From contig JAHYIT010000009.1 of the NCBI GenBank assembly GCA_019429205.1, positions 1-64,000 of the forward strand: a stretch of DNA of 64,000 nucleotides, read 5' to 3'. This document shows positions 19,255 through 46,019 of this stretch, piece after piece; positions within the stretch are counted from its first letter, which is position 1; the number at the start of each line of letters is the position of its first letter. Below the pieces are notes generated by a model. The model worked only from the letters and a program-made list of their open reading frames with translations. It did not search any database and was not told the origin of the DNA. This DNA comes from Mariniphaga sp. (lineage in GTDB: Bacteria > Bacteroidota > Bacteroidia > Bacteroidales > Prolixibacteraceae). Made by a program: the position numbers and the translations under genes.

Positions 19255-19291
19255 TTATTCAAGTTTTGACTATTAAACATTCTGTCGAAAT

Positions 19292-21751: not shown

Positions 21752-21779
21752 GTTTTCTCCTTTGTCACAGTGTTTTCGT

Positions 21780-23177: not shown

Positions 23178-23210
23178 AACATTTTACCTTTTAAAAGTTA
23201 AGTAACTATA

Positions 23211-24665
23211 TCATTTTATAACAGTTACAATTGTGCGCTGATAACGAGTCAACTGAGGACTTCCATTATCTTTTACTTCACAGATAATGTGAATTATTTC
23301 TCCAATAGAAGTATCTTCCGGCACTGTAAATAAAGCGTCTTGTTGATCGGCATTTTGTAAATCGATATTTCCTTTGTATGTTCCAGCTTCTAAGTATTGC
23401 CACCATTTGTAGCTCAGTTCATCTCCATCAGGATCAGAGGTTCCTTTGGCACTTAGTTGAATTGTGCTACCAGGTTTTGCCTTTTGTTCTGGTGCATTAG
23501 ACAGTTTAACAACAGGAGCATGGTTGGCGTCTTTGTAAGATTGTACGCACCAGTCGGCTCTGGCTGCAAAATCCTTTTGAATAGCATCGGTCCATCGCGC
23601 CAGAGGTTTGAAATATTCCCTCATCAGGGCCTGGTTCTCAGGATATTCCTTTCGCATATACAATCTACCCCAGGCAGACCCGGTGTACCATCTGCCTTCC
23701 GGATACTCGTAATCTGAAACAGGCACAGGATCGAGCCATGTATTGTCGCGAACCTTCACATAACGGCCGCCCCATCCACCCCAGTCCGGGTGTTCCATAT
23801 TACGCAATCCCGTAAGAATAGTATGTAAAAATGCTGGAGAATCACCCTCTGACCTGAAATCTCCATCATTAAAGTTTGTATCGCCCGCCAGTCCGTGGCT
23901 TCCGGGAACATGTGCCTTGTATAGCGAACACAACGCACCATGTCCTTCCAAGATATTTTTTTTCATCCAATCTGCCCTAAAATAGTCTTTTTTGCCCTCG
24001 GGTAAAATCTTATTCCATTGATAGGCAATGGCCCAGAATTGGTCAGATATAATCGTCTGAATATTATATTTGCCCCAGCTTGGCCTGATATAAGCCTGAT
24101 AGGTAGAATCCTGTTCCCAAATAAAGAAAAACCGTATCTTCTTTGCTACTTCTTCCATCTTCTCCGGATGCTCCTCCTCAATCGTTTTCAGCGCCCGGGC
24201 GATCGTATTGGTTCCGCCCCAGGCCTGTAGCCAAACCGGACGTTTATCCGTATCGTCCAGCAGGACATCAACAATAAGCAGAGAACCGGCCGTAACTTCC
24301 TCCATCTCCCCTTCTGCTTTTACATTTCCAAGAACCGTACGCTCACGCAGGTATTCCGGTTTGGGATAATTCGGATCGTGTTTGCTTAAATTTGGATAAA
24401 CCTGTGCATAAGCCTCCAGATATGGATCTGCCCAACCATCACCGGCCCAACGGTGCCCCTGCCAGTGGTACTGCGAACTCGAAGTAATAATGCCTTCAAC
24501 ATCCCATTCGTTGGTGTATAATAAAAACCTTACCAAAGAACATTCATCATCTATTTCCCCATCACTCGTAACAATTACACGTGGTTTTAATATGCTATTT
24601 TGAGCAAACATTTCACCTGCAAACATCAGAAAAAAGAGACTCATTAAAATGAAATAATTTTTCAT
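23211..24665 (-). CDS. DUF1593 nucleoside-hydrolase-like exported protein
   Basis: A 484-residue exported protein with a signal peptide ending near MFAGEMFAQN. The N-terminal two thirds match the DUF1593 class, with a nucleoside-hydrolase-like start RVIVTSDGEIDDECSLVRFL, in which the DGEIDDE acidic cluster resembles the metal/ribose site of nucleoside hydrolases. The last 90 residues form an Ig/cadherin-like beta-sandwich (PGSTIQLSAKGTSDPDGDELSYKWWQY). The substrate is unknown. It is embedded between two pectate lyases with gaps of 7 and 33 bp, so a role in pectin breakdown is inferred from context only. Confidence 0.8.
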   Translation of the reverse strand: MKNYFILMSLFFLMFAGEMFAQNSILKPRVIVTSDGEIDDECSLVRFLLYTNEWDVEGIITSSSQYHWQGHRWAGDGWADPYLEAYAQVYPNLSKHDPNYPKPEYLRERTVLGNVKAEGEMEEVTAGSLLIVDVLLDDTDKRPVWLQAWGGTNTIARALKTIEEEHPEKMEEVAKKIRFFFIWEQDSTYQAYIRPSWGKYNIQTIISDQFWAIAYQWNKILPEGKKDYFRADWMKKNILEGHGALCSLYKAHVPGSHGLAGDTNFNDGDFRSEGDSPAFLHTILTGLRNMEHPDWGGWGGRYVKVRDNTWLDPVPVSDYEYPEGRWYTGSAWGRLYMRKEYPENQALMREYFKPLARWTDAIQKDFAARADWCVQSYKDANHAPVVKLSNAPEQKAKPGSTIQLSAKGTSDPDGDELSYKWWQYLEAGTYKGNIDLQNADQQDALFTVPEDTSIGEIIHIICEVKDNGSPQLTRYQRTIVTVIK

Positions 24666-24672
24666 ACGTATA

Positions 24673-26046
24673 TTAATTTATGCCGTTGATATATTTTTCC
24701 AACATCGTGTATCCATCTTCTGCAACCTTATTTCTATCAGATGCATCGTTTGGGTTAAGACCGTTCTGCTTTTCCCAATCATCGGGCATGCCGTCATTGT
24801 CAATATCTTTTGGGGGTTGGGTGCTTTTGAGAACAGGCCAGCCCCCAACATCTTCGGGGGAATCAATGATTCCTTTTTTGCCGCCGGAAAATGTAGCGCC
24901 GAATTGTTCCTTTCCGGTAAGAGTTTCATCTATAATCCGTTTATCAACTATATCTCTTTGGAGTGAAGCACCTACCGAACGAAGAACACTTTTAAACGCA
25001 TCTTCTGCGGTTTCTGTTTTTATTTGTGCAAACGGAATCGGTTGGTTCAGTTTTGAAAAAGATTTCGTTTTTTCATTCACTCCCTTTCCCTGAATTCCTT
25101 TTCCCCAGTTATCTTTTGTAACTTCAGGATAGCCTTCCATAAAGTTACCTTCAATAAAAAATTTGCCTGGTCCCAACGTGTCCGTATTATGCTGCGGATT
25201 GAAAAAAGACTGGGTAAGATCGAGAATCCGGTATCTGACATTTTTATTGGTTGCCGGGCCGGGCTTGAAGTAATTGTTAACGATATTGTAATTTCCCTCT
25301 TCTCCACCGTAAATGCTGTTGTGGCCCCAGTTGTAAATCACATTGTTTCGGAAATCAACCTGTTCCGAATCCGGATTATTGTTATAGCGCGAACCGTGAA
25401 ATCTTGGATTCCGGCTGGTATGATCGCAAATCAGGTTATGATGGAACGTTGCATTTTTTCCGCCCCAGATTCCTCCGTAGCCATGATTTCCCTTGCTGTG
25501 CACAGACTGGTCCAAACTTTCGCTGACAATACACCACTGGAGGGTGAAATTTTCGGTTTCATAAAAGGAGGCTGCTTCATCGGTTCCCCAGCTAAAACTG
25601 CAGTGGTCGATAATAATATCTTTGATTCGAATGCCTGAAATGGCATCCAGTTCCTTTCCTGATTTATCGCCAGGGCGGACCCTGATGTAGCGAATGATAA
25701 TGTTATCAGCATCAATTCTGATTCCGAAGTTTTTCAAACAAATTCCGTCTCCGGGAGCCGTCTGTCCGGCAATGGTTAAATCGCCATTTATTATGTGGAT
25801 AGGCTTTTGCAATTCAATAGTACCTGACACCCTGAAAACAATAGTTCGAGAACCTTTTTCTTCAATTGCTGACCTAAAACTGCCTTCTCCTTTATCATTT
25901 AGGTTATCTACAAAAAGTACCTTCCCTTCGCGTCCACCTGTAGTAAACATACCTCCTCCCCCGGCTGCGGGAAAAGCAGGAACCTGTGAATTTGCTAAAT
26001 TCAGTACAAAAACAAAAAATATCAACAATAAAAAAAACTGTTTCAT
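24673..26046 (-). CDS. Pectate lyase (PL1-type)
   Basis: About 457 residues from the ATG at 26046, chosen because it opens a standard signal peptide (MKQFFLLLIFFVFVLNLANSQ). An upstream in-frame ATG at 26088 would add 14 unlikely residues. The lyase domain shows GREGKVLFVDNLNDKGEGSFR, IAGQTAPGDGICLKNFG, IIDHCSFSWGTDEAASFYE and HHNLICDHTSRNPRFHGS. The familiar GGRGG is GGREG here, a small variation. It ends with a DIDNDGMPDDWEKQNG calcium motif and no T9SS tail, so it is probably periplasmic. There is a 7-bp gap to the DUF1593 gene. Confidence 0.9.
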   Translation of the reverse strand: MKQFFLLLIFFVFVLNLANSQVPAFPAAGGGGMFTTGGREGKVLFVDNLNDKGEGSFRSAIEEKGSRTIVFRVSGTIELQKPIHIINGDLTIAGQTAPGDGICLKNFGIRIDADNIIIRYIRVRPGDKSGKELDAISGIRIKDIIIDHCSFSWGTDEAASFYETENFTLQWCIVSESLDQSVHSKGNHGYGGIWGGKNATFHHNLICDHTSRNPRFHGSRYNNNPDSEQVDFRNNVIYNWGHNSIYGGEEGNYNIVNNYFKPGPATNKNVRYRILDLTQSFFNPQHNTDTLGPGKFFIEGNFMEGYPEVTKDNWGKGIQGKGVNEKTKSFSKLNQPIPFAQIKTETAEDAFKSVLRSVGASLQRDIVDKRIIDETLTGKEQFGATFSGGKKGIIDSPEDVGGWPVLKSTQPPKDIDNDGMPDDWEKQNGLNPNDASDRNKVAEDGYTMLEKYINGIN

Positions 26047-26170
26047 TATAAAGGTTTTTGTTTTCAAGGAAATTCTGCAAATTTCCATGGCGGACTATGC
26101 AGAATTTCCTGTGATAAACAAACTAACTAAACTATGAATCAAAAAATCTACCCTTTTCAATTTTTTTAAA

Positions 26171-27811
26171 CTACAAACCAACTCTCCAGCGTGGATCCCC
26201 TGAATCTCCCTTGCCAGGGAAAGCCGCATCTTTAAATTCAAAAATGCTGTTGTAAGGATCTGTCCATAGGTCGGTAACCAATCCGGGATATGTAACTGAA
26301 GGGAAACCAGGTATTTCATCCTTCCCTTCGCCGTAGCTGAATTCACTGGTGGCATAGGTATTAGTAATTAACCAGTTTGTATCGCCAAGCCCGTCAAAGC
26401 CATCAATTGCCACATTTCCGGAATCATCCTCATCCCATCCATGTCCCCAAATGGTATTTCTTATGGTAATACCGTCCAGCACATTGTCTTGTCCACCGGT
26501 TCTCCAGCGGAAAATCTGACGTCCGAACGAAGGAGTTTCATGAATGGTGCAACCATCTATAACAATCGAATTTGAGTTGTTCCTGCTAACCAGGAAAGAC
26601 CTGGCTTTTGAGATGGTAGAATTTTCAATTAAAATATCGTTGCAAATCCATTGATCCCTGTCCTGGGTGAAAATGGCATAATCCCTGATGCTGTCAATGG
26701 CGCAACCTGTAATCGTAAATTTATCAAGAGTTCCTTCCCCACCTTTAATTCTTCCAATTCCGCGGAATAGCCTTAAAACGCAGGATTCAAACTTAATTTC
26801 ACCAATTGTTCCACTTGCATCGATATTAAACACATATCTGGCATTGAAACCGTCGGCAGATGCTGTAAGGTGGATATCCTTAAAATGAACAAATTCAATG
26901 TTGCTGCCATCGGCAATATTGAAATTGGAGCTGCAGTCGATGACCGGCAATGCAGGTACAAAACTGTAGCCGCTCATAAATGACACGGATTTATCCAATT
27001 TGTATCCACCCGCAAGATAGGTTTTTCCACCTTCCAGTAACAAAACACTTCCGTCTTCCACATCCGGCAAAATATCGGCCAGGTTTACCGTGCTGTCTAT
27101 GCCGGTAAGGTTAACCACATTATCACCCGATACCAAAGGTTCTCTGGTGGTATAAACCTCCCAGCCACGTATCACATCGTTACTGAAAATAGCTACCTGA
27201 TAAGTAGTTGAAGGTTCAAGTCCTGCAATAATTTTCAGACCTTCCTCCCGCTCTTCCGGAGTAACTGAAAATTCCTCCAATGGTGTTGTCAGGCGTTCAT
27301 CGGTACCAGCATATACTTTGATACCTGTGATTGGCTCACCTGCAGGAGTCCAGAATACTTTTGCCTGATTATCGAGCACATCGAAAAAAGTTGGAGTACC
27401 CATGTTCGAAGGAAATTTTTGTGTTCTTACACTTCCAAGGAATGAGGGAAGACTGTTATACTGCGGATCGTCTGCAATGGCAGTTACCCTGACCTGGTAA
27501 ACCGTAAACCAGAGCAATTCCTCTCCCACTGTTTCGCTGTTAATAACCACGTAATTTGTATCGGTTTCAAAAGTATAATCCATGGTTAAAAATGTATCTC
27601 TGCTGACTTCAATAATGTATCTTTCAGCAGCCTTCATTTTACCTAGGTTTACCAATATGGTATTGTCAACCGCTTGAAGAGATTCGTTCAGAACCGGCTG
27701 AAAAAGGCGGGTTCTTGGATAATCCTCTTCTTCTTTGCAGGCATGAAAAATAAGCAGTCCTGCCACAAAAAGAAGGATAATAAATCTGATATTTAATTTT
27801 TCTATTTTCAT
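26171..27811 (-). CDS. DUF4957/DUF5123-type beta-helix lipoprotein
   Basis: A 546-residue lipoprotein (LLIFHACKEEEDYP, lipobox with Cys near 26) directly after SusD. Two fibronectin-III-like stretches (about 35-215) precede a right-handed beta-helix domain (about 230-545) of the DUF4957/DUF5123 type. The position downstream of SusCD and the acidic residues after the lipid Cys suggest a surface glycan-binding lipoprotein. The helix domain is paralogous to the T9SS-tailed protein at 10237. There is no T9SS tail here, so the same module is displayed by two routes. Activity is unknown; it may bind or cleave pectin. Confidence 0.78.
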   Translation of the reverse strand: MKIEKLNIRFIILLFVAGLLIFHACKEEEDYPRTRLFQPVLNESLQAVDNTILVNLGKMKAAERYIIEVSRDTFLTMDYTFETDTNYVVINSETVGEELLWFTVYQVRVTAIADDPQYNSLPSFLGSVRTQKFPSNMGTPTFFDVLDNQAKVFWTPAGEPITGIKVYAGTDERLTTPLEEFSVTPEEREEGLKIIAGLEPSTTYQVAIFSNDVIRGWEVYTTREPLVSGDNVVNLTGIDSTVNLADILPDVEDGSVLLLEGGKTYLAGGYKLDKSVSFMSGYSFVPALPVIDCSSNFNIADGSNIEFVHFKDIHLTASADGFNARYVFNIDASGTIGEIKFESCVLRLFRGIGRIKGGEGTLDKFTITGCAIDSIRDYAIFTQDRDQWICNDILIENSTISKARSFLVSRNNSNSIVIDGCTIHETPSFGRQIFRWRTGGQDNVLDGITIRNTIWGHGWDEDDSGNVAIDGFDGLGDTNWLITNTYATSEFSYGEGKDEIPGFPSVTYPGLVTDLWTDPYNSIFEFKDAAFPGKGDSGDPRWRVGL

Positions 27812-27858: not shown

Positions 27859-29682
27859 TTAAAATCCAAAACCATATCCATCATTCTTCAATAATCCTTT
27901 ACTGTTATCGATCCCAATAGTAGGAATCGGGAAAATATACCTGACGATTCCATTTGGAACACCAATATTCGAACCGTTTATGTAATTATCCCAGTCGCGG
28001 GTAATCCATTCGGCAAATCCGTCGGGTCTTGTTTCGCTGTACATAGCAATCAGCCATGTTTGTCGTTCCCAGGTTTCGTCTGGTGCAGCCAAAACTTTTT
28101 CATGCGTATTATAAATTATCAGGTCACCGTTTTCATCAAGTTTTGTATAAACATAGTCGGGCAAATCCCCGGTTCCGTTAAAAGCATCCAAAGCCATCTG
28201 CTTACAGCCGTCCACTGTTTCTTTAACTTTTTCATAATAGAGGTTCCAGCGAATCAATTCATATTTGCGAATCATTTCACCGCCAAATTCCCATGCACGT
28301 TCATCCACGATGGCATTAAAAAAATCATCCTTGCTGCCCGAAACAGTAGCTGTGTACTGATCAACTTTTGTGGACCATAATGCCGGTTCGAATGCTCTAT
28401 GACGAACACGTTTGAAAGCATCCTGAGCCTCTCCCGTTGGTCCGTTCAGTTCATTTTCGGCTTCGGCAAACATGAGCAGCACATCAGAATAACGCATCAT
28501 GGGCCAGTTAATTCCTGTGCCTTTGGAAGTGGATGGACCGGGAGGATTATCCAAAAAATGGCGGCTCCATTTTCCCTGCGAAATGTTCATATTTCCTCTG
28601 CTTACAAGTTCCTGAATAAAATCACCGTTAATTGTATATAATCCGCAGGTAACCGGTAATCTTTTATCTTCACGATCGAACGAATAGAAATAGGTTGGCG
28701 GCATTGCCATGTAATTGCTACCCTGACCGTATGGATGATTTCCGGGATCGACGCGGATACCAATGTTCCAGCCAACATCGCCCCGACCAATTGCAAAGGG
28801 TACTTCGAAAAGCATATCGCTGTTGACAGGTGAAATGAATTTGCACTGGTTCATAAAAACCTGCCTGAAATTGGCTCCAAGTGTACGGTCTTTAAGTGTT
28901 ATGAGCTTTTTGGTGTAATCCCTTGCAATTTTATAATAGTCCTGGTAATCGGCTTCGCGGGTCATGGTTAAATCGGGTTTAAGATACCAACCTCCACGCT
29001 GGAGTGCAAGGCGTGCAATCATACCCAGGGTATATTCCCGGTTAATTTGTTCAATCCCGAACTGCAGTTCATCTGCCCACAACATTTTATTTTCAATATC
29101 AATAAGGTCTTGAATAACGGTCGATAGAATGACATTTCTGTCTTCTTTAGGGAGGTTAAATTCCACATCAACGGAGGGTGCATTTTCGGAAAACGGCACA
29201 TCTCCAAAATAAAAAATTAGCATGCTGTACCAGTATGCGCGCATGGTATAAGCTTCGCCAAGTAAGTGGTACATATTTCTGGAAAGAACAACATTCTCAG
29301 ATTCAAGGGCATCGCTTGCAAGAATACCTTCGATGGCAATATTCGCATCGCGAATAGCCTGGTAACCAATATCCCAAACATACCTTAAGTCACCATTGTT
29401 TTCCTGTGCATCGAGCCGCCAGATTTGGTATCGTGCACCGTCGCTCGAACCGCCATTGTGTTCAATATCAGTGTTACCTGTCATATTGTTCGATAGTCGT
29501 GATTGAAACCCATCGTGGCTGAAATGGACATACATGGCATTTACAGCTTTTCTGGCGTCCTCTGCATTGGAAAAAATGTATTCAGAATCGAATGTTGAAA
29601 GCGATTCGGGTTCTAAAAAATCTTGACATGCAGTAAAAGAGAAAAATACTGCAATTATTCCTGTTAAATATTTATATTTCAT
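27859..29682 (-). CDS. SusD/RagB-family outer-membrane lipoprotein (PUL 1)
   Basis: About 607 residues from the ATG at 29682, where the signal MKYKYLTGIIAVFFSFTACQDFLEP begins (lipobox FTAC). An in-frame ATG at 29703 is an alternative, 6 bp after the SusC stop. SusD motifs are the N-terminal SEYIFSNAEDARKAVNAMY, TPR-like helices with RAYWYSMLIFYFGDVPF, and the C-terminal SDVLLMFAEAENEL and FPIPTIGIDNSKGLLKND. It forms the lid of the SusC transporter and captures oligosaccharide at the cell surface. Second structural gene of the operon, directly coupled to SusC. Confidence 0.93.
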   Translation of the reverse strand: MKYKYLTGIIAVFFSFTACQDFLEPESLSTFDSEYIFSNAEDARKAVNAMYVHFSHDGFQSRLSNNMTGNTDIEHNGGSSDGARYQIWRLDAQENNGDLRYVWDIGYQAIRDANIAIEGILASDALESENVVLSRNMYHLLGEAYTMRAYWYSMLIFYFGDVPFSENAPSVDVEFNLPKEDRNVILSTVIQDLIDIENKMLWADELQFGIEQINREYTLGMIARLALQRGGWYLKPDLTMTREADYQDYYKIARDYTKKLITLKDRTLGANFRQVFMNQCKFISPVNSDMLFEVPFAIGRGDVGWNIGIRVDPGNHPYGQGSNYMAMPPTYFYSFDREDKRLPVTCGLYTINGDFIQELVSRGNMNISQGKWSRHFLDNPPGPSTSKGTGINWPMMRYSDVLLMFAEAENELNGPTGEAQDAFKRVRHRAFEPALWSTKVDQYTATVSGSKDDFFNAIVDERAWEFGGEMIRKYELIRWNLYYEKVKETVDGCKQMALDAFNGTGDLPDYVYTKLDENGDLIIYNTHEKVLAAPDETWERQTWLIAMYSETRPDGFAEWITRDWDNYINGSNIGVPNGIVRYIFPIPTIGIDNSKGLLKNDGYGFGF

Positions 29683-29709
29683 AACCATAAAATTAATATT
29701 CATTGTTTA

Positions 29710-32700
29710 TTAAAACGAAAGATTTACACCAAAGGTAAATGAACGGCTCCGCGGGAAGGACGAATAGTCGATACCCGGTGTAAGCGCTGCATAGCTGCTG
29801 CTTCTCGATGTACTCACTTCCGGATCATATCCGGAATATTTTGTCCACAGCCACAAATTGTATCCTGTGGCATAAATGCGTAAAGAAGACATTCCAATTG
29901 TGTTACTTAAACGCGATGGAAAGGTATAACCAATAGTCAGAGTATTCAGGCGAAGGAAGGAACCATCTTCGACTGCCCAGTCGGAAATTACCGTAGTGGC
30001 CTGACCAAATGAGTTGCTGCCGCTCCATATAGTTTTATCGGCATTCATTTGCCTCAGTTGATCCAGTTCGGTAACAAGTTCTCCCGGAGTGCCCGTATAT
30101 GTTCCGTCAACATCAATGTAGGTATAGCGTTTATCAGAACTCATTGAAGTTAACATATTGCCAAAACGTGTGCGGTATAACTGGTTATAATCAATTTTTC
30201 CTGTATTATACACATCGTTACCCAACGACCAGTTAAATAACACCGAAGCATCGAATCCTTTAAAAGTGGCATCGAAACCAAAACCACCTGTTGCATCGGG
30301 TAGTGCACTACCTATTATTTTTCTGTCCTGACTGTTAATCAAGCCGTCACCGTTCAGGTCTTTCAGTTTCATATATCCTGGCCGAACACTGTTTACGCCT
30401 AAAGTATTCCTGTTATCCGGAACATTTTCTTTTAACGTGTAGGTATTGGTAACCGCGTTATAACCCGTAAAATCATCTGCTGTGAACATGCCATCATTTA
30501 CATAGCCATATATCAGGCCTATTGTTTGTCCTACTGCCAGGTAATAGTCATCGCGGTCTTTCAGGTCGGTACTCGACCAGTTCGACTGAAAAAAGCGTTC
30601 GTCGGTACCATCCAGTGCATCAATTTTTGCTTTATTGATACCAAAGTTGAGGCTTGCAGAGAGTGTAAAATCGTCTTTGTCAACAATAATCGCACTCAAT
30701 AACATTTCAATACCTTTATTGGACGTACTTCCAATATTATTCCACTGGGTGTTGAAACCTGAAATAGGTGAAATTGCCGAAGCAAGCAACAGGTCTTTGG
30801 TTGTATTTTGGTAAAGGTCGATATTTCCTCTTATTCTTCCATTATAGAACATAAAATCCAGACCCATGTTTCTGTTTATTGTAGTTTCCCAAATTATATG
30901 CGGATTGTATAAGGTTGACCCGTCGGGTGAATAATAAGGATTGAATGAATTTGTTCCCATGCCGGGGCCTCTGTTGGTATTCGCCCTAAAAAGGAACTTT
31001 GTTGCATTTGCCGGAATACGGTCGTTACCTGTTGCACCATAACTGAGGCGAAGTTTCAATTCATTTATAGCATCAGCTCCCTGAAGGAAACTTTCTTCAT
31101 TAATTTTCCATCCCAATGCAATTGCGGGGAAAACACCTACCCGGTTTTCTTGTGAAAACTTACTCGAAGCATCGGAACGCAAAGTGGCAGTAAACAGGTA
31201 TTTTCCGCTATACTGGTAATTAGCGCGCGCGAAAAAAGACAGCCGGTTCTGCTCAGTCGATTGATAACTTGAATAACTATCCAATGTTCCCAATGCCATG
31301 TTGGCAAACATTTCCCCGGGCTGCATTGTTTCTCTGAAGTTTTCTACACGTACAAAATTTCCTTTTCCTCCGTTTGAATAAATCTCATTACCTAACAACA
31401 AATCAAGTTGATGTTCACCCAGATTTTGAAATGTATAATTAGCGGTATTGAGTAAACGGAAGGAATAGTTATCACGGTATTCAGATGTCCCCAAAGGCAG
31501 GCTGTTTCCTTCCTGCTGCGATTGGCTGGTTAAAGGTCCGTAGTAGCGCAACCTTTCATCAAAAGTTCTGCTGCTTGTAATGGCCGAATTCAATCTCAGG
31601 TTTTCATATGGGTTCCAAGTAAGTCCGGCCTGTAACACATAGTTCATGGTATTTCTTTGTCTCCAGTCTTGTTTTGCCAGTTCAATCGGGTTAATGAGGC
31701 TGAGCAAAAATGATTGAAAATCATCGGAAGAATCGATTTGGGCAAGGTCAATATCCAGTTCATCGGCAATTCCGTTTACCGGACGGGCAGTAATAACATT
31801 TTTAATGCGTAACTGCGCACTCCCGGCTGTTCCGGCACCGTCAACCTGTGTATCCGTTATCCTGGCCGAGGCGTCAAAAGTTAATGATTTTGCAATCTCA
31901 TGATTTAATTTGAAATTGATAACATTTCGGCGATAACCGTTTCCAATCATTATTCCATCATCAATATTATTGGTTAAACTGAGGCTGACTTTCGTTTTTT
32001 CTGTGCCTCCGCTTATACTTAAGTTATGCGATTGAGAAACCTGTGGTGTTCCAAATAATTCGTTCTGCCAGTCGTTTGGTTTTTTGTACCTGTAAAGCTC
32101 CAAATCGTCGTATTTACCGTAATAACGTTCAAAATTACGCAAATCAGACTCCGATCGAAGTTTTGCATGTTCATAATGTACCATTACAAACTCATACGGA
32201 TCGAGCACATCATAAACCCGTTCCTGTGGTAACGTTTTAACCTGTGCATACCCGTTGTAACTTACCAAAGTTCTTCCGGCCACGGGACTCCTTGTGGTAA
32301 TCAAAATTACACCGTTTGATGCCTGAGCACCGTAAATTGCTGTTGCAGCCGCATCTTTTAACACATTAATGCTGGCAATATCGGTAGGTGGTACATCCCG
32401 AATGCTTCCTACGATAAAACCATCCACCACATACAACGGAGAATTGTCCTGGGTTACAGAGCCGCCACCACGTACCCGGATTACTATTTCAGCGTCAGGC
32501 GAACCATCGGTGGTAATGATGTTTACACCAGGCAACCGGCCTTTTATTGCTTCCGCTGCATTGGCAATGGGTATTTTTTTCAACTCTTCACCCGAGATGG
32601 ATGCAACCGATCCAGTTAAATCTCTGCGGCGGGCAGTACCATAACCAACAGCCACAATTTCATCCAATTGTGTAGTTGAAATTTCAAGTTCAACGTTTAT

Positions 32701-33015
32701 TTCATTTCTTTGACCAACAGGTATTTCCTGTGTAGTATAACCAATAAATGAAAATATCAATACAGCTTCTGCCGAAGGCACTTCAATGCTGTATGTTCCG
32801 TCAACCATTGTTACTGTGCCCTGAGTTGTCCCTTTCAGAACCACGTTTACACCAGGCAGTGTTTCTCCGGTTTGAGAATCAGTAATTTTACCCGTTACCA
32901 TCCGCGTTTGTGCAAAAATGGTTGAAGCAAAAATTAGCTGAACTGCCAAAATAACAGCGAATTTGAAAAAATAATTTAATCGCTGTTTTTGAAACTTAAT
33001 TTTACAATTTGCCAT
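29710..33015 (-). CDS. SusC/RagA-family TonB-dependent transporter (PUL 1)
   Basis: An 1101-residue outer-membrane transporter. After the signal peptide (ending STIFAQ) come a carboxypeptidase-regulatory-like domain (about 38-125, GKITDSQTGETLPGVNVVLKG), a TonB box region DEIVAVGYGTARRRDLTGS, a plug domain and a 22-strand barrel ending in SRSFTFGVNLSF. It imports oligosaccharides, here presumably pectic, with SusD. It heads a nine-gene run on the minus strand (33015 to 13373) with gaps of 6-124 bp. Upstream lie a conserved 34-codon mini-gene (33077-33181) and a two-repeat operator (33261-33296). Confidence 0.95.
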   Translation of the reverse strand: MANCKIKFQKQRLNYFFKFAVILAVQLIFASTIFAQTRMVTGKITDSQTGETLPGVNVVLKGTTQGTVTMVDGTYSIEVPSAEAVLIFSFIGYTTQEIPVGQRNEINVELEISTTQLDEIVAVGYGTARRRDLTGSVASISGEELKKIPIANAAEAIKGRLPGVNIITTDGSPDAEIVIRVRGGGSVTQDNSPLYVVDGFIVGSIRDVPPTDIASINVLKDAAATAIYGAQASNGVILITTRSPVAGRTLVSYNGYAQVKTLPQERVYDVLDPYEFVMVHYEHAKLRSESDLRNFERYYGKYDDLELYRYKKPNDWQNELFGTPQVSQSHNLSISGGTEKTKVSLSLTNNIDDGIMIGNGYRRNVINFKLNHEIAKSLTFDASARITDTQVDGAGTAGSAQLRIKNVITARPVNGIADELDIDLAQIDSSDDFQSFLLSLINPIELAKQDWRQRNTMNYVLQAGLTWNPYENLRLNSAITSSRTFDERLRYYGPLTSQSQQEGNSLPLGTSEYRDNYSFRLLNTANYTFQNLGEHQLDLLLGNEIYSNGGKGNFVRVENFRETMQPGEMFANMALGTLDSYSSYQSTEQNRLSFFARANYQYSGKYLFTATLRSDASSKFSQENRVGVFPAIALGWKINEESFLQGADAINELKLRLSYGATGNDRIPANATKFLFRANTNRGPGMGTNSFNPYYSPDGSTLYNPHIIWETTINRNMGLDFMFYNGRIRGNIDLYQNTTKDLLLASAISPISGFNTQWNNIGSTSNKGIEMLLSAIIVDKDDFTLSASLNFGINKAKIDALDGTDERFFQSNWSSTDLKDRDDYYLAVGQTIGLIYGYVNDGMFTADDFTGYNAVTNTYTLKENVPDNRNTLGVNSVRPGYMKLKDLNGDGLINSQDRKIIGSALPDATGGFGFDATFKGFDASVLFNWSLGNDVYNTGKIDYNQLYRTRFGNMLTSMSSDKRYTYIDVDGTYTGTPGELVTELDQLRQMNADKTIWSGSNSFGQATTVISDWAVEDGSFLRLNTLTIGYTFPSRLSNTIGMSSLRIYATGYNLWLWTKYSGYDPEVSTSRSSSYAALTPGIDYSSFPRSRSFTFGVNLSF

Positions 33016-33076: not shown

Positions 33077-33181
33077 TTAAGATATCAGATTGAGAAGAAA
33101 TAGCATTGCAACAACCAAAAAGATAATAGTAAAAACTATTTTAAGGTTAGTATTTTTTAGGTTCCGGTGAAATTCTTTCAT
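33077..33181 (-). CDS. 34-aa single-pass membrane mini-protein upstream of susC (PUL 1)
   Basis: A short gene in an otherwise empty intergenic region. It encodes MKEFHRNLKNTN, then a hydrophobic stretch (about residues 15-30) and NLIS. The basic N-terminus followed by one helix predicts an N-in single-pass inner-membrane peptide. An equally long homologue lies in the same place before the other susC (45793-45897). They share 15 of 34 residues, including MKE, NLK, TN, LVVA and NL. Seven of the 15 shared residues use different codons, which points to selection on protein. It starts 79 bp after the operator and ends 61 bp before susC. No known family is recognised. Confidence 0.75.
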   Translation of the reverse strand: MKEFHRNLKNTNLKIVFTIIFLVVAMLFLLNLIS

Positions 33182-33203
33182 AGCCATAAACTAATTTTGT
33201 GCA

Positions 33204-33220
33204 ATTTATCACTGATAAAT
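33204..33220. promoter_or_regulatory. Perfect 17-bp palindrome between operator and mini-gene
   Basis: ATTTATCACTGATAAAT has 8-bp perfect arms around one central base. It cannot form an RNA hairpin of normal loop size, so a protein-binding DNA site is more likely. It is not found before the second susC. Confidence 0.35.
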
Positions 33221-33260: not shown

Positions 33261-33296
33261 TTTCCCAACAGGGGTTATATTTCCCAAAATACGGGA
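33261..33296. promoter_or_regulatory. Two-repeat operator upstream of PUL 1
   Basis: TTTCCCAA occurs at 33261-33268 and 33280-33287 (period 19 bp; TTGGGAAA in the susC direction). Each copy is followed by a GGG-containing inverted half: GGGG at 33271-33274 and CGGGA at 33292-33296. A near-identical block is at 45983-46019 before the other susC. Two direct repeats about two helical turns apart suit an AraC-type DNA-binding domain such as that of the HTCS at 46066. The site lies between divergent genes and could serve both. Confidence 0.65.
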
Positions 33297-35597: not shown

Positions 35598-36563
35598 TCA
35601 GAGTTCAATATAATGCAAGACCCAGGTTCCCAAGATATTAAAAGGAGTGTAATTTGCAGCTTCGGCATCGCTTAACTGGTGCGACCATTTTACACGATTT
35701 TCTGTTTTTGAACCTTCTCCTGTATTTTTATATTCGGCGTAAAATGTTGTAGATTCGTTTCCAACATTGCTCCATACTTTCCAACCTTCGGGATGAATAT
35801 GTTTTCCCAGTTCACATTGCATAAACACAGTTTTTGCATAAGGTCTCCATGGTCTTCCCAGAAAAACACTCTGCACTTCTTCAAGAGCCGATAATTTACA
35901 GTTCATGAATACAAAGCCGAAAGGTTTTCCTTCATTTGTGCTTGCCGCTGTTATGTACGAATCGCTTCTGCTGATAATTTTGCAATTGCTGAATACAGCG
36001 GTTGCGGAGCCAAAAATAAAATCGGTGGTGCCCTCAATTATACAGTCAATAAATAACTGATTGCTGTTTTCTCCATCAAGGTAAGCTGTGTCCTGGTTCC
36101 CCAAAAGCCGGCAGTTTTTAAACGCACACCGGTTTCCTTCCACATGCAATGCAACGGCCTGGCCAACTCTGCCTGCCGAATTTTCGATGGTCAGGTTTTC
36201 GGCATAAAAATTGTCGGCTTCAACTTTAAATGTGTAGGTAAAAAAAGTGCTGTTTCTTCCACGGTCTATTTTGTCGAAATAATCGTCCCAGACAATGATG
36301 GTCTTTTCGGCATCCTCTCCAATGATCGAAAGCATGTTATTCCACGAGGGAACCCTGACTTTTTCGCGATAAACTCCGTTTTTTATGAAGATGGTAATTC
36401 TTTTATCGGGGAAAGCTTTTGTTGCATCAATGGCATCCTGAATTTTGATGAAATCTCCAGTTCCGTCGGTGGATACTACCATCTCGTACAAAACACCCGA
36501 TTGGGCAAATATATATGTACAAAAAATCACAACTGCTGAAAAAAGACAAATTAACCGTTTCAT
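35598..36563 (-). CDS. Pectinesterase (CE8)
   Basis: About 321 residues from the ATG at 36563, chosen because the signal MKRLICLFSAVVIFCTYIFAQ starts there; a longer frame would overlap the preceding gene. It hydrolyses pectin methyl esters. CE8 motifs are GNQDTAYLDGE, EGTTDFIFGSATAVF and FLGRPWRPYAKTVF, with the catalytic Asp pair and the Arg of LGRPW present. No extra modules or T9SS tail, so it is probably periplasmic. Last gene of the PUL 2 enzyme operon, 23 bp after the CE12 gene. It is distinct from the CE8 copy at 37417, with which it shares the core motifs. Confidence 0.93.
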   Translation of the reverse strand: MKRLICLFSAVVIFCTYIFAQSGVLYEMVVSTDGTGDFIKIQDAIDATKAFPDKRITIFIKNGVYREKVRVPSWNNMLSIIGEDAEKTIIVWDDYFDKIDRGRNSTFFTYTFKVEADNFYAENLTIENSAGRVGQAVALHVEGNRCAFKNCRLLGNQDTAYLDGENSNQLFIDCIIEGTTDFIFGSATAVFSNCKIISRSDSYITAASTNEGKPFGFVFMNCKLSALEEVQSVFLGRPWRPYAKTVFMQCELGKHIHPEGWKVWSNVGNESTTFYAEYKNTGEGSKTENRVKWSHQLSDAEAANYTPFNILGTWVLHYIEL

Positions 36564-36586
36564 TTTTAGTTGAATAATTATTCTTT

Positions 36587-37324
36587 TTACCGGATATATT
36601 TTGCAAATGCTAAATTCTTTTTTTTGCACTCTTCAACTGCCAGCCGGGCAACCTCGCGTGCTCCCTTTTCCGAAAGATGTGTATCGTCTTTTCTTCCTTC
36701 CGGAAATCTGTCATCGGGTTCAGTCCACAGGAACATTTTTTTTGAAGGTTCATCGCCCAGAGAGTTTACCCAATTTTCCGTCAGCTTTTGCAAATCAATC
36801 AGTGGAACATTCATTTTTTCCGCCACTTGCCGCACAGCCACCGGATAATCGCCGTGGGTGTCGGTCAGCTTTCCGTCTGCGCCAAATTTTCTTCTTACAA
36901 TGGAAGTAAACAAAACCGGTGTTGCCCCTTTTTCGCGCGATTCAGAAACAAACTTTTCAAGGTTTTCGGAATAAGTACCAAATGGGGCTGTGTATCTTGT
37001 TGAATCCTGATATTTTTGGTCGTTGTGCCCAAACTGGATAAATACGAAATCGCCCGGTTGCAAACTATCCAGTACAGCTTTCCATCTCCCTTCATCGATA
37101 AAACTTTTGGTACTTCGGCCATTTACAGCATGATTTTTTATGGTAACCGTTTTATCGAAATAATTTTGAAGTACCTGGCCCCAGCCGGTTTCAGGGTAAA
37201 CTTCCTCTTTTTTATTGGCCATGGTTGAATCACCAATGGTAAAAATCCGGAATCCTTTTTCCTTTGGTTTACCTGCCCAAAGCAGGCAAAAACTCAATAA
37301 AATATAAATTGTCCAGCGAATCAT
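36587..37324 (-). CDS. Rhamnogalacturonan acetylesterase-like SGNH hydrolase (CE12)
   Basis: A 245-residue exported esterase (MIRWTIYILLSFCLLWAGK signal). SGNH blocks are FTIGDSTMANK (nucleophile Ser), a Gly in GWGQVLQNYF, VNGRSTKSFIDEGRW, GHNDQK (Asn) and DDTHLSEKGA (catalytic Asp and His). These fit CE12 enzymes that deacetylate rhamnogalacturonan. The length matches the single-domain family form. It sits between two pectinesterases, with a 92-bp gap upstream and 23 bp downstream, so de-esterification functions are grouped. Confidence 0.9.
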   Translation of the reverse strand: MIRWTIYILLSFCLLWAGKPKEKGFRIFTIGDSTMANKKEEVYPETGWGQVLQNYFDKTVTIKNHAVNGRSTKSFIDEGRWKAVLDSLQPGDFVFIQFGHNDQKYQDSTRYTAPFGTYSENLEKFVSESREKGATPVLFTSIVRRKFGADGKLTDTHGDYPVAVRQVAEKMNVPLIDLQKLTENWVNSLGDEPSKKMFLWTEPDDRFPEGRKDDTHLSEKGAREVARLAVEECKKKNLAFAKYIR

Positions 37325-37416
37325 TTTGAATAAATTAAATTTCCTTATTCCTTATTCGATATAATAGTTTCAACAGCAACGGAATATGCACTTATGTGAA
37401 AACCGCCCTGTTGTTA

Positions 37417-38385
37417 TTATTTGTAAAACGGATGGTCTTCCAGCCAGTCTCCCAGTATTTTTACCGGATGATATTTTTGAACTTGTTCTTCAGATAGCTG
37501 ATGCGACCAGCGAACCCTTTTTTGTGGATTTGCACCCGGTCCAAAACTTTCGTATTCGGCAAAAAAGGCTGTTTTTTCCTTTTCCGGATCGCCCCAGTTA
37601 TGCCAGCCCCCGGGTTTAATGTGGTCTCCCATTTCGCATTTTATAAAAACCGATTTTCCATAAGGACGCCATGGTCTGCCGAGATAGAATGATGCTTCAG
37701 GTGCATTTCCTGTAATTTTACATTCAAGAAATACGAATCCGAATTCTGTTTTTTCCAGAGTAGATGGTGCAGTAATATAACCGCGGTCTTTACAAAAAAT
37801 GGTACAATTGTCGAAAACAGCCGTTGACCAGCCAAAAATAAAATCAACAGTTCCTTCAATGTAACAGTTTTTATAGTACTGCCGGCTGTTTTCACCATGT
37901 GGGTACAAAGTATCTTGAAATCCCAGGAAGCGGCAGTTTTTAAAGGCAACTTTATCGCCATTAATTCTTACAGCCACTGCCTGCCCAACCTGTCCGGAAG
38001 AGTTTTCAAAGGTTATGTTTTCAGCAGAAAAGCCTTCCCCAAAAATAAAAAAAGACGAGGAACCTGTGGTGCCCATTTCTTCACCAAACCGGTTCTTTTT
38101 CGATGCAAAATCATCGTGGGTCAGAATGGTTTTTTCCACATCTTCTCCGATAAAAGACACATTTGTTTTGCTTGCCGGAAGCACCAGTTTTTCCTTGTAA
38201 ATTCCGTTTTTTATGAAAATGGTTGTCTTGTTTTTTCTGAAATCGGGAACTGCATTAATGGCCTCCTGCACTGTGGTAAAATCGCCGCTTCCGTCTTTGG
38301 CTATTACAAAATCGTATGCCATGGCGTAAATTCTGCCACTAATCAGAATAATGAATATAATACCTGAAATCCCTAATTGTTTCAT
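37417..38385 (-). CDS. Pectinesterase (CE8)
   Basis: A 322-residue pectin methylesterase with a short signal peptide (MKQLGISGIIFIILISGRIYAM). Motifs are DFTTVQEAINAVP, GFQDTLYPHGENSRQYY, EGTVDFIFGWSTAVFDNC and YLGRPWRPYGKSVF, so all catalytic elements are present. It lies 9 bp after the GH43 gene and so is translationally close to it. It differs from the 35598 copy in a Ser-rich loop (EEMGTTGSSSFF), which may reflect different pattern or ester preference. Confidence 0.93.
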   Translation of the reverse strand: MKQLGISGIIFIILISGRIYAMAYDFVIAKDGSGDFTTVQEAINAVPDFRKNKTTIFIKNGIYKEKLVLPASKTNVSFIGEDVEKTILTHDDFASKKNRFGEEMGTTGSSSFFIFGEGFSAENITFENSSGQVGQAVAVRINGDKVAFKNCRFLGFQDTLYPHGENSRQYYKNCYIEGTVDFIFGWSTAVFDNCTIFCKDRGYITAPSTLEKTEFGFVFLECKITGNAPEASFYLGRPWRPYGKSVFIKCEMGDHIKPGGWHNWGDPEKEKTAFFAEYESFGPGANPQKRVRWSHQLSEEQVQKYHPVKILGDWLEDHPFYK

Positions 38386-38394
38386 TCCTTAATA

Positions 38395-40026
38395 CTATTT
38401 TTCTATTCTGAACCAATCAATATCTACAGTACCTGCATCATTGGTTATTCCTTCGCGTAAAGCAAAGTAGCCAATTTTAGCACCAATCCACCGGCCGGGT
38501 TTTGCCTCGAATGACGGACCGGTATTTGTAAATTTTTTTCCGTCGTTACTGAAACTGAAGCTGCAAACAGCTCCTTTTTCCACTTCAACTCTGAGATAAA
38601 TATCATTTCCTTCAAATTCTTCTGAGAACAATTCGATTTCATTTCCACCGGTGCGCGCATTTTTACACTGAACTGTCCTTACAAAAAGTTTATTGTTTTT
38701 GCGAACCAGTGAAATAAACTGATAATCTTCGCCCATAACAACAAAACCAGCTTCCTCGTCGTTGTTACGTGCATTAAAAGTAAGTTTGGTTGTAGCGGTA
38801 AACTCTTCGGCCGGAAATTTTTGAAGTAAAAGATTTGGAACGTTCCATAATCCTTCAGTATTTTCAGGCCTTACAATGCAGTTTAACCTGTAAAAGCCAA
38901 GGTTACCTGGCGGAAATCCAAAAGAAATATGCGGATTAGCATGCCACTGCCATTGCAATCCCAAAGTGCTTCCATTAAATTCATCGCTTTCGGGTGGAGT
39001 GACAACCGGGTGTGTTTTTCCAACATCAGGCTTTTTAAATGTGCGTACAGGTTCTCCGGTTCCGTCGCCGTTTTTATCGGTTCCAATTACCGGCCAGCCG
39101 TTATTCCAAACCATTGGATTCAGGTGTACAATTCGGCCGTAAGCTTCCCTATCCTGAAAATGAATAAACCAGTCTTCGCCGCTTTGGGTGGCAATCCAGG
39201 CACCTTGATGCGGACCGTTGATATCGGTATTTCCCTGGGCCATAACCACTTTTTCTTCATAAGGTCCGTAAATATTTTCGGAGCGAAGCACCAGTTGCCA
39301 GCCGTGAGTAACTCCACCGGCCGGGGCAAAAATGTAATAGTATCCATCTTTTTTGTAAAACTTCGACCCTTCAACGGTAGGGTGTTCGTCATGCCCATCA
39401 AAAATCATCACTTCGTCACCGGTTATCGCAGTTCCTTCCTGATTCATTTCGTTCACAACTAAAATACTTTTTATTCCTGCCCGGCTTCCGGCAAAAGCAT
39501 GTACAAGGTAAGCTTTGCCGTCGTCATCCCATAAGGGAGAAGGATCAATGAGCCCTTTACCCGCCTTTACCAATTTAGGATCAGACCAGGGGCCTGCAGG
39601 GTCAGTCGCTTTAATAACATAGATGCCAAAATCAGGATCGCCCCAGTAAATATGGAATTGATTTTTATGAAACCGGATGCAGGGGGCCCAAACTCCGTTT
39701 CCATGTTGTGTAGTATTAAATACATCTTCAGGAATTTGTCTTTTTAAGGCATGACCAATCAGTTCCCAGTTGACCAAATCTTTTGAATGAAGTATGGGCA
39801 GGCCGGGAATACAATTGAATGAGGATGATGTCATGTAAAAATCATCACCAACACGCACCACGTCGGGGTCGGAATAATCGGCATGAATGATCGGGTTTTT
39901 AAAGGTTCCGTCGCTGTTATCGCCAACCCATACATTGGAAACCGGTAACTGGCACAAAGCAATCATCGGAACAATGTAAAAATTGCAAATTGTAATTAAA
40001 ATTTTCTTCTTATTTAAATTTTTCAT
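38395..40026 (-). CDS. GH43-family glycosidase with C-terminal beta-sandwich
   Basis: A 543-residue enzyme; a signal peptide is likely (MKNLNKKKILITICNFYIVPMIALCQ). The five-bladed GH43 domain (about 30-335) has HADYSDPDVVRVGDDFY (base Asp), GLIDPSPLWDDDGKAYL and VEGSKFYKKDGYYYIFAPAGG (acid Glu). A C-terminal GH43-associated beta-sandwich (about 345-540) follows. Likely activities are beta-xylosidase or alpha-L-arabinofuranosidase on pectin side chains; the sequence does not decide. First gene after the intra-operon terminator (40100-40139), with the pectinesterase 9 bp downstream. Confidence 0.9.
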   Translation of the reverse strand: MKNLNKKKILITICNFYIVPMIALCQLPVSNVWVGDNSDGTFKNPIIHADYSDPDVVRVGDDFYMTSSSFNCIPGLPILHSKDLVNWELIGHALKRQIPEDVFNTTQHGNGVWAPCIRFHKNQFHIYWGDPDFGIYVIKATDPAGPWSDPKLVKAGKGLIDPSPLWDDDGKAYLVHAFAGSRAGIKSILVVNEMNQEGTAITGDEVMIFDGHDEHPTVEGSKFYKKDGYYYIFAPAGGVTHGWQLVLRSENIYGPYEEKVVMAQGNTDINGPHQGAWIATQSGEDWFIHFQDREAYGRIVHLNPMVWNNGWPVIGTDKNGDGTGEPVRTFKKPDVGKTHPVVTPPESDEFNGSTLGLQWQWHANPHISFGFPPGNLGFYRLNCIVRPENTEGLWNVPNLLLQKFPAEEFTATTKLTFNARNNDEEAGFVVMGEDYQFISLVRKNNKLFVRTVQCKNARTGGNEIELFSEEFEGNDIYLRVEVEKGAVCSFSFSNDGKKFTNTGPSFEAKPGRWIGAKIGYFALREGITNDAGTVDIDWFRIEK

Positions 40027-40250: not shown

Positions 40251-42308
40251 TTAATTATTTGGCAATCCGTAGCCATTCGTTACATTGCCTTTTGATTGAT
40301 CAATTAATGTAAGTGGCATCGGGTGAAAGTAACGGGGCGCGCTGTTTTCACGGCCTACTACGCCATCCAGGATAGCGGCATTTAACATCGCTTTGGCATT
40401 TGGGTCATTCCAAACCCTGATGCCCCAGTCAACTCTTGTATATCCATCCGCTTCCAGGGCTGCAGCTTCGGCTCCGTCAGGATCAATATACTCATACAAA
40501 CCTTTAATGGCCAGATTTTTGGCAGGATATGCCTCATGAGCTTCTGCACCCCAATTGTAGATACCGCGCCAGCCCGGGTAAAGTGCCGGATCATTTGGGT
40601 CGGGAGTTTGTGTAACTATAGCGGTACTGCTTCCACCAACCTGAACATATTTAGTCCAAACATAATTGGAAATGGTCCTGCCGCTCGGGAATGTGAAAAA
40701 TCCGTTAGCTTCAAGGCCTGCAATCATATCGTCCATTTCCTGACGTACGGCAATGGCTCTTTCATTAAACTTACCGGAACGAATCATATCCCAGCGAACA
40801 TCCCCTTCTCCCAATAATTCTAATTTGCGCTCATGATAAATGGCATCTAACAACGCTTCGCCCGACAATCCGGGAATGTTGTTGCCTGCATCACCAAAAG
40901 CTCTTTCGCGGATTTGGTTTACCAACGCAGCCGCACCTCCATTATCGCTTCCTGATATGGCTTTTGCTTCGGCAAGCATAAGCATGGCATCGGCCATTCT
41001 CATTATTACATAGTTTATACCTGTCGCACGGAATGATACATTTGGGTAGTCCGGCTCATCTCCTCTGTTTTTGTCCCATTTGTTAATACTCGGTCCGCCA
41101 CCGCCGATACGGGTACCTACGCCGAGCGGTACCAACGCTTCCCTTCCGGTTGCCGCGTCGCTTCCGGTTACAACCATACTCACGTCCCGACGCTTGTCGC
41201 CGGGTTCGTAAGCGTTATATAAGAACGAAGGAATAATTCGGATCGCAGCAAAGGTATTCAGGTAAGCCAAATTATTATGTCTGGCGCCAGGTCGTCCCTG
41301 ACTGTATCCCATTTCAGCATTTCCAGTACCGGGAACAGTACCAATTTCAAAAAGCGATTCGGGACTTATGCGTCTGGAGTTAATCTCTTGCCAAACCTTT
41401 TGGAAAGGATTGTCGGCTTCTCTGTTGTCTGCTGTAACCAACATTGCTGTTCCGCTATGGGTGTTTACAGCTGCGTTCAGGTATTGTTCGGCCGTTGTGA
41501 TATAAGTCAGATAATCTGTGCGACGCGCGTAAACGCACAAACCGTCATCAGAACCTTTCGTCTCAAACTGCACATCGCCATACAATCCTGGAACATCTGT
41601 GCGAATGGTTTGCCATCCACCGGCGTGAAGCGCAATCTCACCGATGAGTGCGTTGGCAAAAGTACGGCTAAGACGTTCAGCCGTAATGCCACCTTGCCCT
41701 AAAACATACATTTTACTTTCAACGGCTTTGAGTTCTTCAATAATGATATCCATAATCTCAAAACGCGAAGTCAATTCGTACTCATCCACAACCTGGTTAT
41801 CATAACCAAAAGGAACATCACCAAAGTGACGTACCAGTTCCCAGGCGCAATATGCCGACAGGGTTCTGGCTTCTCCGTAAACTTGTGTCCAGGCTGTAGG
41901 TGTGTTACCTTCAGCGTCAGCCTGATATTCTGCCTTCTCTTCTATTAAACCGGCAACACGAGAAGCGCGTGCCAGAGCAGTATTTAAACCGTTATACAGA
42001 CCCATTGCAGAATTTATAGTTGTTGCAGCAGGCTGTAATCGGGCAATTACATTGTTTGCCGTAGGAAATTCGCTCATATATTCAGCATCCGATCCCAGGG
42101 GATCTTGCCAGTTGTAGTTTCCGCCGTGTGCGGCATTTTGGCGATATTCGGCATAAGCCCATGATAACGTTTTAAAGGCTTCATCGGGACTCGACATCAC
42201 AAAGTTGTCGTCGGATTCGCCTGCATTCGATACATCCAAATAGTCATTGCACCCGCCAAATATAATCGGCAACAGTGCCAGGTATATATATTTTATTATT
42301 TTTTTCAT
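40251..42308 (-). CDS. SusD/RagB-family outer-membrane lipoprotein (PUL 2)
   Basis: A 685-residue lipoprotein, longer than the usual 500-620. The signal is MKKIIKYIYLALLPIIFGGCNDYLDVS (lipobox FGGC). SusD features include ARTLSAYCAWELVRHFGDVPFGYDNQ in the TPR region and C-terminal MRMADAMLMLAEAKAI, HERKLELLGEGDVRWDMIRSG and FHPMPLTLIDQSKGNVTNGYG. It pairs with the SusC 39 bp upstream to capture glycan at the surface. The extra length lies in the middle and C-terminal loops. A terminator follows it, before the enzymes. Confidence 0.93.
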   Translation of the reverse strand: MKKIIKYIYLALLPIIFGGCNDYLDVSNAGESDDNFVMSSPDEAFKTLSWAYAEYRQNAAHGGNYNWQDPLGSDAEYMSEFPTANNVIARLQPAATTINSAMGLYNGLNTALARASRVAGLIEEKAEYQADAEGNTPTAWTQVYGEARTLSAYCAWELVRHFGDVPFGYDNQVVDEYELTSRFEIMDIIIEELKAVESKMYVLGQGGITAERLSRTFANALIGEIALHAGGWQTIRTDVPGLYGDVQFETKGSDDGLCVYARRTDYLTYITTAEQYLNAAVNTHSGTAMLVTADNREADNPFQKVWQEINSRRISPESLFEIGTVPGTGNAEMGYSQGRPGARHNNLAYLNTFAAIRIIPSFLYNAYEPGDKRRDVSMVVTGSDAATGREALVPLGVGTRIGGGGPSINKWDKNRGDEPDYPNVSFRATGINYVIMRMADAMLMLAEAKAISGSDNGGAAALVNQIRERAFGDAGNNIPGLSGEALLDAIYHERKLELLGEGDVRWDMIRSGKFNERAIAVRQEMDDMIAGLEANGFFTFPSGRTISNYVWTKYVQVGGSSTAIVTQTPDPNDPALYPGWRGIYNWGAEAHEAYPAKNLAIKGLYEYIDPDGAEAAALEADGYTRVDWGIRVWNDPNAKAMLNAAILDGVVGRENSAPRYFHPMPLTLIDQSKGNVTNGYGLPNN

Positions 42309-45897: not shown

Positions 45898-45982
45898 TGG
45901 CAATAATAAATTTAACACTCTTGCAAGTTAGCCGGATTATTAAATGCCATATACATTTATATTCCCATAACCTGCTGTTCTT

Positions 45983-46019
45983 TTTCCCAACAGGGGGAAA
46001 TATTTCCCAAAAAGCGGGA
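45983..46019. promoter_or_regulatory. Two-repeat operator upstream of PUL 2
   Basis: TTTCCCAA occurs at 45983-45990 and 46003-46010 (period 20 bp), each followed by a GGG half (GGGGG at 45993-45997, GCGGGA at 46014-46019). It matches the PUL 1 block at 33261-33296 except for a 1-bp spacer difference and a few bases. It is a likely HTCS binding site, 47 bp past the HTCS stop. Confidence 0.65.

Follow-up and report, generated by a model that had tools for sequence, protein, structure and literature searches.

A family of predicted single-helix mini-proteins linked to one HTCS clade and an operator-like repeat at the head of pectin-type operons

A mini-ORF of 34 codons, present twice in the 64,000-nucleotide stretch of DNA analyzed here (hereafter called the window), belongs to a mini-protein family that is tied to one clade of hybrid two-component sensors (HTCSs) and to an operator-like repeat, and not to susC as such. 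The mini-ORF encodes a genuine protein under purifying selection. The reading we favor, to which we assign a probability of about 0.5, is that the product is a selected single-helix inner-membrane mini-protein, encoded by the first gene of operons belonging to a pectin-type HTCS clade, which would be induced by that HTCS and would in turn tune it. This reading draws on four computed results, namely selection at the protein level, a predicted helix, the first position behind the repeat and the association with the HTCS clade.

Two mini-ORFs in the window and their protein family

Both copies are encoded on the minus strand. Mini-protein 1 (33077..33181, 34 aa, MKEFHRNLKNTNLKIVFTIIFLVVAMLFLLNLIS-stop) is the first ORF of PUL 1 and ends 61 nt before the SusC gene, and mini-protein 2 (45793..45897, 34 aa, MKEIQKNLKRTNRLIIVLALILVVAIIIMMNLLL-stop) is the first ORF of PUL 2, with a gap of 79 nt to SusC. 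The initial annotation of this DNA had placed a 34-residue peptide at the first of these positions, naming no strand, and a second copy of identical length at the same place before the other susC. Both statements hold for the minus strand, and translation revealed no open frame on the plus strand at 33077-33181. The alignment of the two peptides also reproduced the 15 identical residues out of 34 that had been counted, Met1 included, and 7 of the 14 identities that are left without Met1 are written with different codons, as had been described. Mini-protein 1 might alternatively begin at an in-frame ATG two codons upstream (33187), yielding 36 aa, but the start at 33181 is preferred because the homologues align from there. 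Mini-protein 2 sits within a 41-codon frame with a GTG start. Both peptides are predicted to form a single helix.

The surroundings of the two mini-ORFs consist of two pectin-type loci, one HTCS and, beyond it, a TRAP transporter. In PUL 1 the genes for SusC (29710..33015, minus strand) and SusD (27859..29703, minus strand) are followed by a segment (13373..27811, minus strand) encoding a pectinesterase with a Por secretion tail, a GH28, a Sde182-like protein, a beta-helix protein and three ORFs without Pfam match. The pectinesterase (13373-17533) measures 1386 aa, of which its pectinesterase domain spans residues 30-339 only, and the three ORFs lacking a match at the Pfam thresholds used (19292-21751, 21780-23177, and 24673-26088) are all large. 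PUL 2 comprises SusC (42348..45713), SusD (40251..42308) and a remainder (35598..40026) with two pectinesterases, a GDSL esterase and a GH43, again all on the minus strand. The HTCS (46066..50202, minus strand) contains Reg_prop, Y_Y_Y, HisKA, HATPase, receiver and AraC-type HTH domains and is the presumed activator of both operons as well as the presumed partner of the mini-protein. Immediately upstream of it, on the same strand, lie the genes for DctM, DctQ, and DctP of the TRAP transporter (50313-53256).

Homologues were searched for with a single sequence in 140 Prolixibacteraceae genomes, then with a profile, and also order-wide in 393 genomes. The single-sequence search returned true members together with chance matches, and rows were kept on the basis of a short open frame, near-full length and neighborhood. 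With the profile, 75 of the 140 Prolixibacteraceae genomes gave a match at E<=0.05, and members were accepted from 52 of them; partial matches and rows lying in long frames were excluded, as was the locus L176, whose match falls inside a 472-aa frame. In the order-wide profile search, 159 genomes were among the matches listed at E<=0.1, and five loci from four genomes were accepted (G203 twice, G274, G360, and G458). A class-wide search (295 genomes, E<=0.005) matched 10 non-host genomes, in frames that ranged from 53 to 922 aa and of which the shortest contains a stop; none was accepted. The family thus assembled has 62 loci, i.e., 60 plus the two of the window, some of them doubtful, each read with up to 10 kb on either side; it covers 52 of the 140 Prolixibacteraceae genomes and 4 genomes outside. 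In the host genome the profile finds just the two copies of the window. The peptides are 34 aa long at 45 loci, 35 aa at 15 and 33 aa at 2. No family in Pfam or NCBIfam was matched by mini-protein 1, and a scan of 18 members against both collections yielded weak and scattered matches, none of them convincing (best Pfam E 0.0034, EssA, one member). The earlier suggestion that the pair may define an undescribed family of PUL-linked mini-proteins is consistent with this outcome, no description of such a family having been found.

The ratio dN/dS, summed over 15 non-overlapping pairs of relatives (a sixteenth was left out for unequal length), is 0.164 in frame, with 163.4 synonymous differences on 350.9 sites and 125.6 non-synonymous differences on 1140.1 sites. 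In-frame pS is accordingly about four times pN, and the shifted frames give pN/pS values of 0.80 and 1.93. Over all 16 pairs, the mean nucleotide identity reaches 82% within the mini-ORF, compared to 66% in the 40 nt behind it, 69% in the 30 nt before it and 66% in the repeat region. Selection on the protein rather than on the DNA, which the initial annotation had deduced from the differing codons, is therefore borne out, and dN/dS, which it had proposed to determine on homologues, came out low.

As to the anatomy of the peptides, residues 1-13 have a mean net charge of +2.76 (62 peptides), and 49 of the 62 contain no charged residue after position 13; by the positive-inside rule, the basic head would be located in the cytoplasm. 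AlphaFold2 predicted one helix (residues 2-33, pLDDT 91.5) from an input alignment of two sequences. A conservation profile of 56 distinct peptides (effective number 31.5; three peptides with a shifted alignment were left out) ranks positions 15 (I 94%), 29 (L 89%) and 22 (L 85%) highest after the start, followed by 20 (I 70%) and 8 (L 68%), so that the frame conserved across the family reads L8-[KR]-[KR], I15, I20, L22, L29. The motif MKExxxNLKxTN, which had been put forward as a search profile, is true of a subgroup but does not extend to the whole family. The mean entropy at positions 8, 15, 22, and 29, which are spaced by seven, amounts to 0.85 bits versus 2.23 bits at the other compared positions. 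A test against any four positions gave p 0.00015 before allowing for seven registers, the register having been picked after the profile was seen, and helical periodicity gave p 0.032. The Ile and Leu residues at these four positions would mark one face of the helix, as for packing on another helix, with the partner left unspecified by the pattern; the conserved position 20 falls off this stripe.

Linkage to an HTCS clade and an operator-like repeat

At 46 of the 62 family loci, a same-strand HTCS2-like ORF lies upstream at a distance of at most 900 bp. The remaining 16 have no HTCS within this distance, which is explained by a contig end in just one case (L129). When HTCS2 was matched against 32 Prolixibacteraceae genomes, the hits separated into two score groups, one of 20 HTCSs scoring at least 1112 bits and the rest of the list at 869 bits or less. 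Among the high-scoring HTCSs with a readable next gene, 18 of 19 have a mini-ORF in between (shuffles average 0.79, with a maximum of 5), and for the twentieth (in G034) the contig stops 273 bp past the HTCS. None of the 68 lower-scoring loci carries a family member by profile, L224 being one without downstream sequence. In a midpoint-rooted tree of 155 HTCS proteins, the 19 with an adjacent mini-ORF (18 from the set of 32 genomes and one from G203) all fall into one clade of 21 with a support of 0.874. The other two members of the clade come from G067, where the repeat is present without a mini-ORF, and from G136, where the contig stops 452 bp past the HTCS. For G136, G145, and G034, whose contigs end 273-452 bp after the HTCS, no family member was found in the available bases. 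A second high-scoring HTCS of G203 is 50% identical and lies outside the clade; its next ORF is on the reverse strand and no mini-ORF is present. Divergence of the mini-protein correlates with that of the whole HTCS (r = 0.71), with no excess for the transmembrane segment. Two further candidates were rejected, namely a mini-ORF behind L231, which is probably due to chance since close relatives of that HTCS have none, and a weak own-genome candidate behind L279 that overlaps SusC. At one family locus (L154 in G027), a truncated-looking HTCS of 365 aa directly precedes the mini-ORF in the usual place of the promoter; the repeat is absent there and the GH105-like operon start is retained.

A general linkage to susC, as the initial annotation had implied, was not borne out. 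In the host genome, the mini-ORF accompanies SusC at only 2 of the 30 loci read; this sample was fetched against 57 listed TIGR04056 rows, and three of the 30 have less than 300 nt upstream. Across the family, SusC is the gene after the mini-ORF at 23 of 62 loci and a GH105-like gene, defined by a motif match (MADSE/MAESE), at 28. A Pfam analysis of five example next genes returned GH88 (Glyco_hydro_88) for two, GH43 for one, a GDSL esterase for one and no match for the fifth, and one of the two confirmed Glyco_hydro_88 genes had been scored as ‘other’ in the motif-based count.

The family mini-ORFs are preceded by direct repeats of the form CCCGCNNTTTGGGAA ... GGGAA. In the window, on the minus strand, the operator-like repeat before mini-protein 1 lies at 33262..33295 (CCCGTATTTTGGGAA-N14-GGGAA, with a third GGGAA at 33241-33245) and the one before mini-protein 2 at 45984..46018 (CCCGCTTTTTGGGAA-N15-GGGAA, third GGGAA at 45962-45966). 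Each is followed on the same strand by an element resembling the -7 consensus TAnnTTTG, i.e., TAAATTGC at 33201..33208, about 20 nt before the ATG at 33181, and TAACTTGC at 45923..45930, about 25 nt before the ATG of mini-protein 2. In the 5.12-Mb host genome there are exactly two matches to the strict form of the repeat pattern, one ahead of each mini-ORF, and none to its reversed control. GGGAA-like units are phased at 18-23 bp, and phased pairs are found at 55 of 62 loci (200 shuffles: mean 0.8, maximum 3), an enrichment that is partly circular, as the units were picked after the loci had been read; this does not apply to the genome-wide counts. The distance from the end of the repeat core to the ATG is 103-109 nt at 40 of the 52 loci having a core, and a -7-like element is situated 10-55 nt before the ATG at 52 of 62 loci (shuffles: mean 17.9, maximum 28). 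Neither operator measure was found at L120, L132, L139, L144, and L154.

A looser repeat pattern matched 30 sites in 63 genomes, 52 with and 11 without the family, and its reversed control matched twice. Of these sites, 24 lead to an ATG-start mini-ORF 81-90 nt further on and one (in G138) to a mini-ORF starting with GTG. Three matches (L378, L386, and L396) were dropped, neither an HTCS nor SusC being visible in the sequence read around them, and 25 of the 27 sites in PUL context, counting exact-pattern sites only, lead into the mini-ORF. The single match among the 11 genomes without the family (in G069) is itself one of the three that were dropped. Among the 52 family genomes, 25 contain a PUL-context match and 27 lack an exact match altogether, which indicates that many members escape so strict a pattern. 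In G035 and G067 (L379 and L385), the HTCS-adjacent SusC operon keeps the repeat without a mini-ORF, and a family copy precedes another SusC elsewhere in the genome (L168 and L173). This arrangement would argue for a product acting in trans.

Proposed role of the mini-protein and alternative explanations

According to the favored reading, a pectin fragment in the periplasm would be sensed by the HTCS, which would then bind the direct GGGAA repeats that lie some 105 nt ahead of the mini-ORF. As the predicted transcription start is no more than about 20 nt away from the ATG, the mini-protein would be the first product translated and would insert into the inner membrane with its basic head in the cytoplasm. 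Its helix face formed by L8, I15, L22, and L29 might then pack on the transmembrane helices of the HTCS, or on another copy of the mini-protein, and the kinase would be tuned in this way, most likely as negative feedback or as adjustment of a set-point, even though the sign could equally be positive. Nearly all operons found through the repeat carry their own copy, which counts against a regulator acting purely in trans, as such a regulator would need none.

Besides tuning the HTCS, the mini-protein could serve the envelope, i.e., it could be an inner-membrane peptide that aids pectin uptake by SusCD/TonB, periplasmic enzymes or a transporter, and be encoded first so that it is made early. Such a role is possible, if rather doubtful, and we consider it a stronger rival than the leader peptide discussed below. 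The mini-ORF heads pectin-type operons wherever genes were checked, and the presence of a copy in each operon would be fitting for a component that serves the products of that operon. However, no constant gene lies directly behind it, this place being taken by SusCs of different types, GH88/105, GH43 or an esterase, whereas the HTCS clade stays constant. The rarity of the mini-ORF at the SusC loci of the host likewise speaks against it.

The initial annotation had named an HTCS membrane partner and a leader peptide among the possible roles, of which the former is favored by the linkage to clade and repeat and the latter has been weakened. As a cis-acting leader peptide, the mini-ORF would control the next gene, or couple to it, by being translated or by targeting the ribosome to the membrane, with its product otherwise without a role. 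The mini-ORF does follow the repeat as the first ORF, its predicted leader is short, and both host sites are among the 25 of 27 PUL-context repeat sites that lead into it; the explanation also retains some weight because a copy is present in nearly every operon that the repeat identified. Nevertheless, the operons of G035 and G067 retain repeat, HTCS and SusC without it, the distance from its stop to the next start is variable (14 to 263 nt at 61 of 62 loci and 1277 nt at one), and the gene that follows changes between loci. The RNA structure of the two leaders folded, those of the window, is not unusual (z 0.61 and -0.96 versus shuffles), no Rfam family was found in the window at gathering score, and conservation resides in the amino acids, with a helix-face pattern. 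Taken together, a leader peptide appears unlikely. Far less probable still is that the operon carries along a selfish element or the small hydrophobic toxin of a toxin-antitoxin system, for which just size and hydrophobicity speak: the mini-ORF is tied to one regulator clade and to a repeat at near-fixed spacing, and the window gave no Rfam match.

Other mini-ORFs behind HTCSs and comparison with known systems

Other ATG-start mini membrane ORFs were present in 10 of 89 gaps behind HTCSs outside the high-scoring group, with about 2 expected from shuffles. Six of these belong to the 47 gaps in the family of the host and four to the 42 outside it, the shuffle maxima being 5 and 4, respectively, so that the four outside the host’s family equal the highest shuffle and are weak when taken alone. 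Two of these mini-ORF families recur in the same slot. Members of the first (F2) are 36-38 aa long, for instance MNKKKNIPKGLFAFRAINVILYLMLIAIVILLFMFL (L281, 1501-1608, with relatives at L282-L287, L289, L294, and L298). A search of 140 genomes gave 18 matches among those listed, 12 of which were read; ten of these loci precede SusC, with a detectable HTCS upstream in 9 of the 10, and dN/dS is 0.15-0.16 over four pairs. The second (F3) consists of 43-aa mini membrane ORFs directly behind related HTCSs (L331 and L302), one of them with a GTG start, in G203 and G197, which belong to two different GTDB families; their mutual similarity has a z of 10.5. Scored against the profile of the 34-aa family (F1), F2 reaches at most 9.1 bits and F3 remains below zero, and a distant kinship of F1 and F2 may exist. 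At L316, L345, L263, and L257, the gap between the HTCS and the following gene holds a mini membrane ORF of which no second example was seen. Some of the remaining seven mini-ORF gaps are probably due to chance. We tentatively put forward the possibility that HTCSs of Bacteroidota often have a dedicated, inducible single-helix membrane subunit, with several families, each heading the operon of its own HTCS and overlooked by annotation, that tune glycan sensing.

In Bacteroidota, HTCSs rank among the major sensors of glycans. Should the mini-protein indeed tune its HTCS, the control of PULs would have a feedback layer that has been missing from the picture, and promoter-proximal ORFs of under about 40 codons, which are easily missed by annotation, would be recurrent PUL parts. 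No small membrane protein tied to an HTCS was found among the papers listed by searches of the open-licence PMC literature, a scope to which most subscription papers and all bioRxiv preprints do not belong. One report mentions HTCSs and small proteins, in the part of the text available in separate contexts only (PMC13037399).

In transcription attenuation, leader peptides are the first ORF in the transcript. The same position is predicted for the mini-ORF, which differs in being conserved as a protein, in lacking unusual RNA structure in the two folded copies and in its absence from two otherwise similar operons. In Bacteroides thetaiotaomicron, 409 sORFs have been predicted, some of them in long 5′ UTRs and likened to leader peptides (PMC7366714). 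Like the mini-ORFs, these are short and are placed in the transcript leaders of a member of the Bacteroidota, but they are single-genome predictions, and the accessible part of that source describes no HTCS-linked family.

The HTCS motifs of a published reconstruction of Bacteroides regulons are direct repeats with a mean distance of 21 bp, close to the phasing of 18-23 bp in the mini-protein family, and HTCS_Rgu-1 of that reconstruction covers pectin genes; in contrast to the operons described here, no mini-protein at operon heads is mentioned in the portion of the paper at hand (PMC3878776).

The nearest parallel in function would be MgrB, an inner-membrane peptide of 47 aa under the control of PhoP; it interacts with PhoQ and provides negative feedback (PMC2789325). 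Like MgrB, the mini-protein would be a short membrane peptide whose gene lies in the regulon of its target kinase; a single helix with a basic head and its topology are predicted for the family, and the contact with the HTCS is presumed. Unlike MgrB, whose system has a separate regulator, the family goes with a hybrid sensor that itself contains an HTH, and it is encoded by the first gene of catabolic operons. MgrB has conserved cysteines in the periplasm, whereas cysteine is absent from all 62 peptides of the family, and no MgrB model was among the Pfam and NCBIfam matches listed at E<=1 for the 18 members scanned. The parallel with MgrB would accordingly be a likeness in working and not one of family membership.
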